This document shows positions 1,031-33,379 of a stretch of DNA of 37,857 nucleotides, piece after piece (the stretch's first letter is position 1; each line of letters begins with the position of its first letter). Origin of the DNA: Candidatus Doudnabacteria bacterium. GTDB taxonomy: Bacteria; Patescibacteriota; Doudnabacteria; UBA920. The translations under genes were made by a program, and so were the position numbers. Location: NCBI GenBank assembly GCA_023245895.1, contig JAHFJJ010000012.1, positions 1 through 37,857 of the forward strand. The letters are read 5' to 3'. Under the pieces are notes generated by a model, which was not told the DNA's origin, made no database searches, and saw only the letters and a list, made by a program, of their open reading frames with translations.

Positions 1031-2083
1031 TTACTCCAGTGCAATCCTTCCCGCGGTAATTTCGGCAAGCTCGGTGGTAATTTTGCCTTGCCTTAAGCGG
1101 TTGTAGGTTAAGGTTAAATCGCCCACTAAATCCCCTGCCGCGTCTGTGGCGTTCTTCATCATTATCATACGCGCGGAATGTTCGGACGCATCGGATTCTA
1201 AAATGGTTTGGTAGAGTTGGGATTCTATGATGCGGGGCAAGAGGTGTTCTAGGACTTGGGTTGGGTCAGGTTCAAATAAATAGTCTGTCATTGCGAGTGC
1301 ATCCGAAGCAATCTTTTTATCTGAAGATGAGATTGCTTCGTCGGTTGCACTCCTCGCAATGACAGAGGAAGTGGCAAAAGGCAACAACTGCTTCATTGTC
1401 GGCTTCTGCACCGCTGTTGATACAAAATGGTTATAAATTATTACTATTTTCTTATACTGTCCGCTCAAATAAGAATCTGTAATTAGTTTTGCCAGGGGAA
1501 AAATATCTTCTGTTGTAATAGTTTTATCTAATTTATTAAAATCCGCCATTATATTTTTGCCCATTCTTTGGGCAATGACTTTGGCTTTCTTGCCGTAAAC
1601 GATTAATTCAGCAATCATATCGTAGTGTGCCGATTTATCGGCGTCTTGGCTGCCCATAAATGGGCGCACTACGTCTTGGATTACCTTAATCAAATTACTA
1701 TTCAAACTCCCAACCAATCCCCTATTCGTAGAAAGCACAATTACGCCGACTTTTTTTGCGTTGGGGAATTGGCGGAGCAAGCTAAGCACTTGTGTCATCC
1801 CGGCCGAGTGCATCCGAGAGCCGGGATCCAGGTCTAAGCCATCTTTCTGGATCCCGGATAGATTTTCGGATGCACTCAAATCTTCGGGGATGACACCTGG
1901 GGACGCCGCCGGCATTAAATTCCCCACCAACTCCCAAGCCAAACCAGCGTAAGTCCTGCTGTTTACCACGGCAGTCTGCGCCTTGCGCATTTTGGCAGCC
2001 GAAACCATTTGCATGGCCTTGGTAACCTTGCGCATGCCTTGGATGCTCTTTATTCTGGTTTTAAGTTCTTTAGTGCCTGGCAT
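1031..2083 (-). CDS. atpG: F1Fo ATP synthase subunit gamma with repeat-derived insertions
   Basis: Central rotor stalk of F1. The N-terminal helix (IKTRI-type start, KVTKAMQMVSAAKMRKAQ) and the C-terminal helix (ASEHSARMIMMKNATDAAGDL, LTYNRLRQGKITTELAEITAG) are well conserved. At 350 aa it is about 65 aa longer than usual. The extra length comes from three segments encoded by palindromic repeats found elsewhere in the window: residues around SPGVIPEDLSASENLSG..., VRPFMGSQDADKSAHY and SVIARSATDEAISSSDKK. By comparison with bacillary gamma subunits from memory, all three fall in variable loops, so the protein is probably functional. The start ATG has only weak ribosome-binding sequence. Confidence 0.95.
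   Translation of the reverse strand: MPGTKELKTRIKSIQGMRKVTKAMQMVSAAKMRKAQTAVVNSRTYAGLAWELVGNLMPAASPGVIPEDLSASENLSGIQKDGLDLDPGSRMHSAGMTQVLSLLRQFPNAKKVGVIVLSTNRGLVGSLNSNLIKVIQDVVRPFMGSQDADKSAHYDMIAELIVYGKKAKVIAQRMGKNIMADFNKLDKTITTEDIFPLAKLITDSYLSGQYKKIVIIYNHFVSTAVQKPTMKQLLPFATSSVIARSATDEAISSSDKKIASDALAMTDYLFEPDPTQVLEHLLPRIIESQLYQTILESDASEHSARMIMMKNATDAAGDLVGDLTLTYNRLRQGKITTELAEITAGRIALE
1285..1365. repeat. In-frame palindromic repeat 3 in atpG
   Basis: Arms CTGTCATTGCGAG and CTCGCAATGACAG enclose inner arms GAAGCAATCT and AGATTGCTTC. The unit is 81 nt, exactly 27 codons, and encodes the extra gamma segment SVIARSATDEAISSSDKK plus following residues. The first 28 nt of the repeat proper recur identically at 33187 beside murD, showing it is a dispersed element and not native gamma sequence. 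Confidence 0.85.
1622..1672. repeat. In-frame palindromic repeat 2 in atpG
   Basis: 51 nt, exactly 17 codons, with arms GTAGTGTGCC... and ...GGGCGCACTAC. The same family, with central TGCCCATAAATGGGC-type arms, is at 5855-5906 between atpF and atpE and at 26626-26684 between lepA and murJ. Inside atpG it encodes VRPFMGSQDADKSAHY. Confidence 0.85.
1794..1894. repeat. In-frame palindromic repeat 1 in atpG
   Basis: Imperfect inverted repeat of about 101 nt with outer arms GTCATCCC and GGGGATGAC and inner arms containing GAGTGCATCCGA and CCGGGATCCA. It encodes about 34 residues rich in S, G and D in the loop following the first gamma helix. GTGCATCCGA-type sequence is shared with the other dispersed repeats of the window. 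Confidence 0.8.
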
Positions 2084-2666: not shown

Positions 2667-2786
2667 TTATTTAATTGTCTGCAAAAAAATAATTGTTTCC
2701 TTGTGCATGCCTCCGCCTTCGCTAAAGCTTCGGCGGACAAGTTGGATGCTCTTTATTCTGGTTTTTAGTTCCTTAGTACCTGGCAT
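2667..2786 (-). pseudogene. Relic: atpG 5' fragment fused to atpA 3' fragment, with palindrome
   Basis: On the minus strand 2786-2742 encodes MPGTKELKTRIKSIQ, identical in protein to the start of atpG but with three synonymous base changes. A 30-nt palindromic repeat (2712-2741) follows, then GGCATGC-CAAGG, the next atpG bases with one change. The sequence then passes directly into 2702-2667, which encodes KETIIFLQTIK and stop, matching the atpA C-terminus [12 protein letters not shown] and stop. The order atpG start then atpA end is what a staggered or tandem-duplication junction would leave. It is not expected to be functional. Confidence 0.8.
2712..2741. repeat. Palindromic repeat inside the atpG/atpA relic
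   Basis: TCCGCCTTCGC and GCTTCGGCGGA arms around a short loop. It interrupts the relic atpG fragment by 30 nt, an exact multiple of three. The junction between the atpG and atpA pieces is about 12 nt away. Confidence 0.8.
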
Positions 2787-2790
2787 TGAA

Positions 2791-5854: not shown

Positions 5855-5906
5855 GTAGCGTGCCGATTCATCGGCGTTCTAGATCGCCCATAAATGGGCA
5901 CGCTAC
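5855..5906. repeat. Palindromic repeat between atpE and atpF
   Basis: 52 nt with arms GTAGCGTGCC and GGGCACGCTAC and an inner GCCCATAAATGGGC motif. It belongs to the family found in frame inside atpG (1622-1672) and at the murJ stop (26626-26684). Confidence 0.85.
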
Positions 5907-16868: not shown

Positions 16869-16978
16869 AAAAAACCGGCTTTTTGCCGGTTGTGCAGATA
16901 GGGAACTATTCGCGCGAATAGTTCCTAGATGTTCAGAAGATTTTAAAAATGCAGAGCTTTTCTAAATATTTTTAGTTA
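16869..16978 (-). repeat. Repeat element A: diverged copy behind the ABC gene, with terminator
   Basis: On the minus strand, AACTAAAAATAT overlaps the ABC stop codon. A diverged middle follows (AAAAG, CATTTT still match), then a perfect 24-bp palindrome with core ACTATTCGCGCGAATAGT (16902-16925), and then an ACCGGC/GCCGGT terminator with T-run (16869-16891). The order is the same as in elements B-D, but the VOC-like codons have decayed or were never there. Confidence 0.75.
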
Positions 16979-20157: not shown

Positions 20158-20249
20158 TATGGTACTATTCGCGCGAATAGTACCATAGGGGCCGCCGGCG
20201 CCTCAAAATGTACAACTTTTCCCATATATTTTTAGTTTAATTGTTAGAT
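20158..20249 (-). repeat. Repeat element B (leader, VOC codons, palindrome)
   Basis: Minus-strand order: conserved leader beginning ATCTAACAATTAAACTAAAA (20249 down), then the first 11 codons of the VOC gene from ATG at 20225 (one base change), a short variable spacer, then a perfect 30-bp palindrome (20158-20187) with core ACTATTCGCGCGAATAGT and outer bases TATGGT/ACCATA. It starts 5 nt after the toxin stop codon. The ATG opens a 34-codon frame that runs through the palindrome and terminator. Confidence 0.85.
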
Positions 20250-20878: not shown

Positions 20879-20970
20879 CTAGGTACTATTCGCGCGAATA
20901 GTACCTAGAAGCTCGCCGGCACCTCAAAATGTACAACTTTTCCGATATATTTTTAGTTTAATTGTTAGAT
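20879..20970 (-). repeat. Repeat element C (leader, VOC codons, palindrome)
   Basis: Same order as element B. The leader (ending at 20970) is identical, the VOC codons run 20946-20914 with the ATG changed to ATC, and the perfect 30-bp palindrome is at 20879-20908 with outer bases CTAGGT/ACCTAG. The start-codon change and an early TAG show that protein coding is not what is conserved. It separates the retropepsin gene from the antitoxin promoter. Confidence 0.85.
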
Positions 20971-21719: not shown

Positions 21720-21926
21720 CTAAGGAACTATTCGCGCGAATAGTTCCTTAGGATCCGCCGGCACTTCAAAATGTACAACTTTTCCCATACCCAGTAGAAT
21801 TTCTTTGAGATTGTTTGCCTACTCGAGGCATTACAATCAACTCTGACTACTTTAAAATCCAGCAAACCAGCCTATAGTTCTCAAAGAAGCTCTACTGGGC
21901 ATATATTTTTAGTTTAATTGTTAGAT
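21720..21926 (-). repeat. Repeat element D, interrupted by a MITE-like insertion
   Basis: Leader (21926-21904), VOC codons (ATG at 21788, continuing to GCGGAT at 21753, one synonymous change) and a perfect 32-bp palindrome (21720-21751) with outer bases CTAAGGA/TCCTTAG. A 110-bp insertion splits the leader from the ATG. It is the longest of the four copies by palindrome length and the only one with an insertion. Confidence 0.85.
21790..21899. mobile_element. MITE-like insertion with terminal inverted repeats
   Basis: 110 bp with 21-bp terminal inverted repeats (CCCAGTAGAATTTCTTTGAG at the left; 19 of 21 match at the right) flanked by a CATA duplication (21786-21789 and 21900-21903). Elements B and C show the uninterrupted sequence with a single copy. 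An internal hairpin (GATTGT ... ACAATC with TGCCT/AGGCA) is present. It encodes no protein, so it needs a transposase from elsewhere. Family not recognised. Confidence 0.85.
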
Positions 21927-26625: not shown

Positions 26626-26684
26626 GTAGTTAGCTGATTTATCAGCTGTTAATATTTCGGACAGCCCATAAATGGGCTAACTAC
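26626..26684. repeat. Palindromic repeat containing the murJ stop codon
   Basis: 59 nt with arms GTAGTTAGC and GGGCTAACTAC and an inner CCCATAAATGGG motif. Same family as the repeats at 1622 and 5855. The murJ TAG stop codon is formed by its last bases on the minus strand. Confidence 0.85.
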
Positions 26685-33186: not shown

Positions 33187-33271
33187 GTCATTGCGAGTGC
33201 ATCCGAAGCAATCTGAATTGTCAGCAGGAAAAGACTGCTTTGTCGTCCGCCTTAGGCGGACTCGCGATGAC
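33187..33271. repeat. Palindromic repeat upstream of murD
   Basis: Outer arms GTCATTGCGAG and CTCGCGATGAC, with GTCCGCC/GGCGGAC inside. Its first 28 nt are identical to the repeat inside atpG at 1287. It lies 12 nt upstream of the murD ATG. Confidence 0.85.
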
Positions 33272-33379
33272 AGTGAATTTCTTATTTATTTTACCATATT
33301 TTTAGTAAAAACAAAAAAACTTAGCTTTGACCTGCTAAGACATTTTTGTTAATGCAATATGGTATAAAAGGAGGCTTTG

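Follow-up and report, generated by a model that had tools for sequence, protein, structure and literature searches.

The question raised by this locus is how the gene for the gamma subunit of an ATP synthase came to hold three palindromic repeats of different families, all in frame, and what has kept the gene open. The locus lies in the window, i.e., the whole stretch of 37,857 nucleotides that was analyzed (contig JAHFJJ010000012.1 of the Candidatus Doudnabacteria bacterium assembly GCA_023245895.1), and the genome under study, denoted G000, comprises 1,140,015 bases (1.14 Mb) in 41 contigs. The features to which the argument refers are the following, with coordinates in the window:

1031–2083, minus strand: atpG, coding for the F1F0 ATP synthase gamma subunit of 350 aa, with three inserts (TIGR01146, E=6.6e-75)
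1286–1364 (outer stem 1284–1366), minus strand: insert A, of the TGTCATTGC..GCAATGACA family, 79 nt, found at about 40 places in the genome
1622–1672, minus strand: insert B, a REPIN-like pair of hairpins with GTAG..CTAC ends, 51 nt, found at about 34 places in the genome, with the architecture of the ends that flank the RAYT gene
1793–1895, minus strand: insert C, of the TGTCATCCCGG..GGGATGACA family, 103 nt, found at about 12 places in the genome
2712–2737, plus strand: palindrome D, TCCGCC..GGCGGA, located within a partial duplicate of atpG that covers its start
2742–2786, minus strand: a second copy of codons 1–15 of atpG, sharing 93% identity with 2039–2083 and lying upstream of the real gene
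5855–5906, plus strand: an intergenic B-family copy adjoining atpF
26626–26684, plus strand: an intergenic copy of the B superfamily (the GTAGTTAGC.. variant) in the lepA/murJ gap
33187–33272, plus strand: an intergenic A-family copy with a TCCGCC..GGCGGA palindrome nested in one loop

That three palindromic repeats lie in frame within a 350-aa atpG, as an earlier note on this DNA had claimed, is borne out by the reading frame, the predicted folds and the copies across the genome. The ORF list and the TIGR01146 match agree on an intact gene, PDB gamma chains match its product (E=3.5e-49), and the AtpG proteins of relatives that lack the inserts measure about 291–300 aa. The three segments belong to different families, each a dispersed repeat in its own genome, with folding energies of -44.6 kcal/mol for A (1284–1366), -28.4 for B (1622–1672) and -59.7 for C (1793–1895) and fold z-scores against shuffles (coding-strand loops) of -6.8, -4.9 and -5.6, respectively. 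The recurrence outside genes described in the note likewise stands: 1287–1314 equals 33187–33214 at 28/28 nt, and the element at 1622 is encountered again at 5855 and 26626. A and C have in common the ends TGTCAT..ATGACA and the loop motif GAGTGCATCCGA, and a search of the literature with the letters of both turned up nothing apparently related. The copy counts are of places found by similarity searches, with the stretches around repeat copies, rather than of a full census; for B, only clearly recognizable GTAG..CTAC copies were kept after a noisy first pass with fuzzy regular expressions.

Several further repeats surround these families. Palindrome D, which has about 9 copies genome-wide, is present in the duplicated atpG start (window 2706–2790) as a clean 30-nt insertion, giving an empty-site pair within the window. 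Some A copies have their loop replaced by TCCGCC..GGCGGA or similar modules, and a similar nesting occurs in the sister species G005 inside a C copy within a glycosyltransferase gene. An A element also lies between atpD and atpC on another contig (C24, L054, 850–946), which appears to carry the missing part of atpD, a gene truncated where the window contig ends. A further abundant family of G000, CCCTCACCCCGGCCCTCTCCC..GGGAGAGGG, occupies about 34 places (e.g., C15:21869, C39:10668 and C27:5027), and elements related to it lie in frame within G005 prfB and G001 purH. Finally, the perfect palindrome GG(T/A)ACTATTCGCGCGAATAGT(A/T)CC, unrelated to A–C, has four copies (20161–20184, 20882–20905, 21724–21747 and 16902–16925), three of which head a repeated block.

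An AlphaFold2 model of AtpG, built from 19 sequences, has a mean pLDDT of 71, and its best match among solved gamma structures is 9itj_G (E=5.4e-19). Values of pLDDT below 50 fall mainly at residues 59–98, 143–154 and 242–268, corresponding to the three inserts, i.e., C at about residues 64–97 (loop 1), B at residues 138–154 (loop 2) and A at about residues 240–266 (loop 3, which links a beta strand to the C-terminal helix). Each of these low-confidence segments is placed between secondary-structure elements, and the rest of the gamma fold is well modelled; thus, the model agrees with the earlier placement of all three inserts in loops of the gamma fold. The insert regions would be translated as part of AtpG, yielding predicted peptides such as SAHYDMIAELIVYGK and SATDEAISSSDK. 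Loop 2 has grown by a net 12 residues or so rather than by 17, some of its native residues having been lost. A chimeric origin of this loop from two GTAG families was considered and set aside, as simple substitutions account for it.

In an alignment of 25 family members, most AtpG proteins have a loop 1 of 11 aa and a loop 2 of about 10–16 aa; loops are mostly short in relatives without palindromes, with longer non-palindromic ones in a few (e.g., G003 and G016). In G005, loop 1 holds A instead of the C of G000, and the loop-2 position of B is taken by another 51-nt palindrome with GTAG..CTAC ends. In G001, loop 1 contains a C that has decayed and loop 2 a further palindrome, of which no other copy was found in that genome; G006, the sister of G001, has neither. 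A is also found in loop 1 of G012, which belongs to a genus other than that of G000 and whose own A-type element gives 24 matches in its genome. G013, from the genus of G012, has no A copies, a loop 1 of 11 aa and a palindrome in loop 3 instead. The refuting condition named in the earlier note was thus checked and did not hold, for the relative lacking the family also lacks the extra residues. As read from the AtpG gene tree, elements entered loop 1 at least three times (G000/G005, G001 and G012) and loop 2 at least twice; the relatives are too divergent for exact empty sites in genes to be fixed. In chloroplasts and mycobacteria, loops of the gamma subunit serve regulatory purposes, and the inserts, which have persisted, could in principle have been adopted for a function of this kind. 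However, the peptide at the same loop differs by species or is absent, AlphaFold2 assigns low confidence to the inserted parts, and the same peptides are found in unrelated proteins, all of which makes such an adoption very unlikely.

The intrusion of these families into coding sequence extends well beyond atpG. A search of the genome for A, B and C placed 37 of 86 non-redundant places within ORFs of at least 130 aa; with genes covering roughly 84% of the window, the elements are depleted in genes, yet far from excluded from them. At least 29 internal copies are in frame, in about 20 genes, counts that vary with the ORF thresholds. The presence of three in one gene, which the earlier note had singled out, holds for atpG but is not unique to it, since three are likewise present in purH, and two each in five further genes (mnmA, leuS, dnaE and those for a glycosyltransferase and a Zn-dehydrogenase). 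Other insert-bearing genes, named from NCBIfam/Pfam, include purD, secA, prfB, rnhB, dnaX, cox1 and those for an M16 peptidase, an M24 peptidase, a PfkB kinase and an O-antigen ligase, and two more such ORFs, of 437 and 307 aa, gave no Pfam family match. Those genes among them that are normally essential appear, from their sequences, to stay open, with conserved stretches flanking the insert. The leuS gene (L032:1895–4861) also has, besides its two palindromes, a serine-hydrolase-like domain (PF06821) inside the synthetase at residues of about 242–396, upstream of the editing-domain match.

All the internal genic copies examined are free of stops and preserve the frame, an outcome that the ORF screen by itself favors; the independent part of the evidence is a test for split genes, which found no gene split by a palindrome among the flanking-ORF pairs tested (a subset of the copies, with both halves required to match Pfam). 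These observations bear on whether the palindromes are absent from the mature protein, the ribosome hopping over the hairpin or the RNA being trimmed. The hairpins are very stable, and there is a precedent in the byps of Magnusiomyces mitochondria, mentioned in PMC6649704 as translational bypassing elements, i.e., short hairpins inside coding genes that are not translated. The likeness to byps ends with the short hairpins in coding genes, for in the present case the frame is kept and stops are absent, even though one of the three frames of B has a TAG; bypassing would need neither, and together with the lack of split genes among the pairs tested this leaves it a very improbable account.

The intact frames might alternatively be attributed to a transposition that itself keeps the reading frame, as the earlier note suggested in speaking of repeats that move while doing so. 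In keeping with this, insert B is 51 nt long, and several genic B-type copies are of 51 or 60 nt and in phase 0. The related claim that the insert lengths are multiples of three stands for B, the only one with a natural boundary (GTAG..CTAC; GTAGTGCGCCCATTTATGGGC..GCCGATAAATCGGCACACTAC in atpG), whereas the 81 nt given for A depends on where it is cut, its length being 79 nt from TGTCAT to ATGACA or 83 nt with the full outer stem. Across full-length copies, however, lengths fall into all classes modulo 3 (0/1/2), both between genes (4/5/5 for A, 3/3/6 for B) and within them (2/2/4 for A, 6/3/3 for B), the latter including B copies of 52–53 nt. Moreover, A has entered genes in all three codon frames and B in both of its stop-free ones. 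With lengths in every class and several entry frames, frame-preserving movement is unsupported and is largely refuted as an explanation. Blind insertion, followed by purifying selection in permissive loops, would suffice for the intact frames seen in these sequences.

How the elements move is best discernible for B. The only Y1/RAYT (REP-associated tyrosine transposase) gene found in G000 (C15:9513–9836, L020) lies between purC-like and purB-like genes and exactly between the two halves of B, GTAGCGTGCCCATTTATGGGC and GCCGATAAATCGGCACGCTAC. It matches NF047646 with E=8.5e-21, at 74.4 bits just under the curated cut-off of 80, and its nearest solved structure is the E. coli TnpAREP 4er8 (E=1.8e-7). 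The RAYT of G002 has the same layout, with similar GTAG..CTAC hairpins on its flanks, and that of G005 is flanked by a GTAG-type element. GTAG-tagged REPs or REPINs with a RAYT constitute REPtrons (Di Nocera 2013, PMC3733652; PMC8049555), and B has the GTAG 5' end with a CTAC counterpart, the pair of inverted hairpins, the tens of copies and a cognate RAYT between the same hairpins. Judged by its sequence, B is therefore a REPIN, formed by two GTAG-tagged REPs, and the RAYT locus is its resident REPtron as those two works use the term. REPs have been reported mostly as extragenic (PMC3733652; PMC8049555), although intragenic ones are known, and two Xanthomonas species carry different REPs at nearly the same site of recB (PMC3733652); the present case differs in the large share of A, B and C places within ORFs given above and in up to three of them per gene. 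As the halves of B flank the sole RAYT gene detected, mobilization by that enzyme, a Y1/HUH transposase of the IS200-like superfamily that would copy B as hairpin DNA, is the most likely mechanism. A and C have no GTAG tag, ending instead in TGTCAT..ATGACA, and were not seen next to any Y1 transposase locus that was inspected; they probably move in a way similar to B.

Taken together, we consider it very probable that the extra segments of atpG are insertions of dispersed palindromic elements into loops, translated with the rest of the protein and retained by tolerance after an entry blind to frame and subsequent selection. The elements, each consisting of two inverted hairpins, would be non-autonomous and would have inserted into surface loops of AtpG; insertions that broke the gene would have been lost, whereas those that were in frame, free of stops and lodged in flexible loops would have survived, the loops tolerating the additional residues in what may be a neutral state.

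In purH, dnaE, prfB and rnhB as well, a given loop is occupied by different palindromes from one species to another, with up to six species concerned. At purH site 1, palindromes of differing sequence are found in G000, G005, G003, G001 and G006. The prfB site holds GTAGTGCAGG in G000, CCCTCACCCC..GGGAGAGGG in G005 and GTAGGGGC..GCCCCTAC in G007 and is empty in G001, G006 and G003; rnhB has A in G000 and GTAGTGC-type elements in G005 and G006. Most species have differing inverted repeats at dnaE site 1, and dnaE site 2 is occupied only in G000, with a 5–6-aa turn in six relatives; clean absence is also seen at purD and at the second glycosyltransferase site. A local, non-mobile origin, in which hypervariable loops grow by replication template switching that makes inverted repeats in place, could draw on the tandem sub-repeats in some loop palindromes (dnaE of G005, G001 and G003) and on the single-copy loop-2 palindrome of G001, but it is very improbable, given that A, B and C are dispersed repeats of G000 and that, among the slot palindromes tested for other species, most (those of G003 dnaE, G007 prfB, G012 atpG and the G005 prfB type) are likewise dispersed in their own genomes. 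Under the insertion of dispersed elements, the same loops would be filled repeatedly by each species' own families because each protein offers few permissive loops. More tentatively, and as a possibility to which we lean less than to its opposite, the permissive loops of essential Doudnabacteria proteins (candidates being atpG loops 1–3, purH sites 1–3, prfB, rnhB and dnaE) may act as standing landing slots, entered repeatedly by unrelated palindrome families, such that the surface of the core proteome is continually rewritten by REPIN-type elements, possibly through replacement of element by element rather than independent hits.

A parallel exists in the Rickettsia palindromic elements (RPE), reportedly described by Ogata in 2000 and 2002 and by Claverie and Ogata in 2003, and in the coding palindromes of Wolbachia, reportedly described by Ogata in 2005. 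Palindromic repeats inside coding genes are indeed known from both genera (review PMC2229807), and an RPE-bearing guanylate kinase is active according to the same review. The comparison with Rickettsia made in the earlier note is apt, and its reading of the inserts as dispersed, mobile-type palindromes that lie in frame in loops is likewise supported. The likeness to the Rickettsia and Wolbachia elements, with palindromes intergenic as well as in frame in conserved genes, absent from the orthologs of relatives and affecting many genes, is one of kind; the present case differs in belonging to Patescibacteria, in having several families per gene, in the tie of one family to a RAYT and in sister-species loops re-filled by other families. 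Nematomorpha mitochondria also have coding palindromes, reported as perfect repeats that are actively maintained (PMC6649704), which resemble the present ones as inverted repeats within coding sequence; the elements described here differ in forming dispersed families and in being subject to decay (as in loop 1 of G001).

Thus, the kind of element is already known, and what is new is the phylum, the occurrence of three families in one gene, the cognate transposase for one of them and the slots re-filled across species; the literature searched, the coverage of which is incomplete, held no earlier report of coding palindromes in Patescibacteria. Earlier examples of coding palindromes come mainly from Rickettsia and Wolbachia, together with scattered intragenic REPs. 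In the present case, in a phylum of reduced genomes, they are found in about 20 genes, many of them normally essential, making this an unusually dense case in which one family, lying beside a likely transposase, is traceable to it. The filling of the same loops across sister species amounts to a natural map of insertion tolerance in essential proteins and makes it testable whether protein loops evolve by the capture of mobile DNA.
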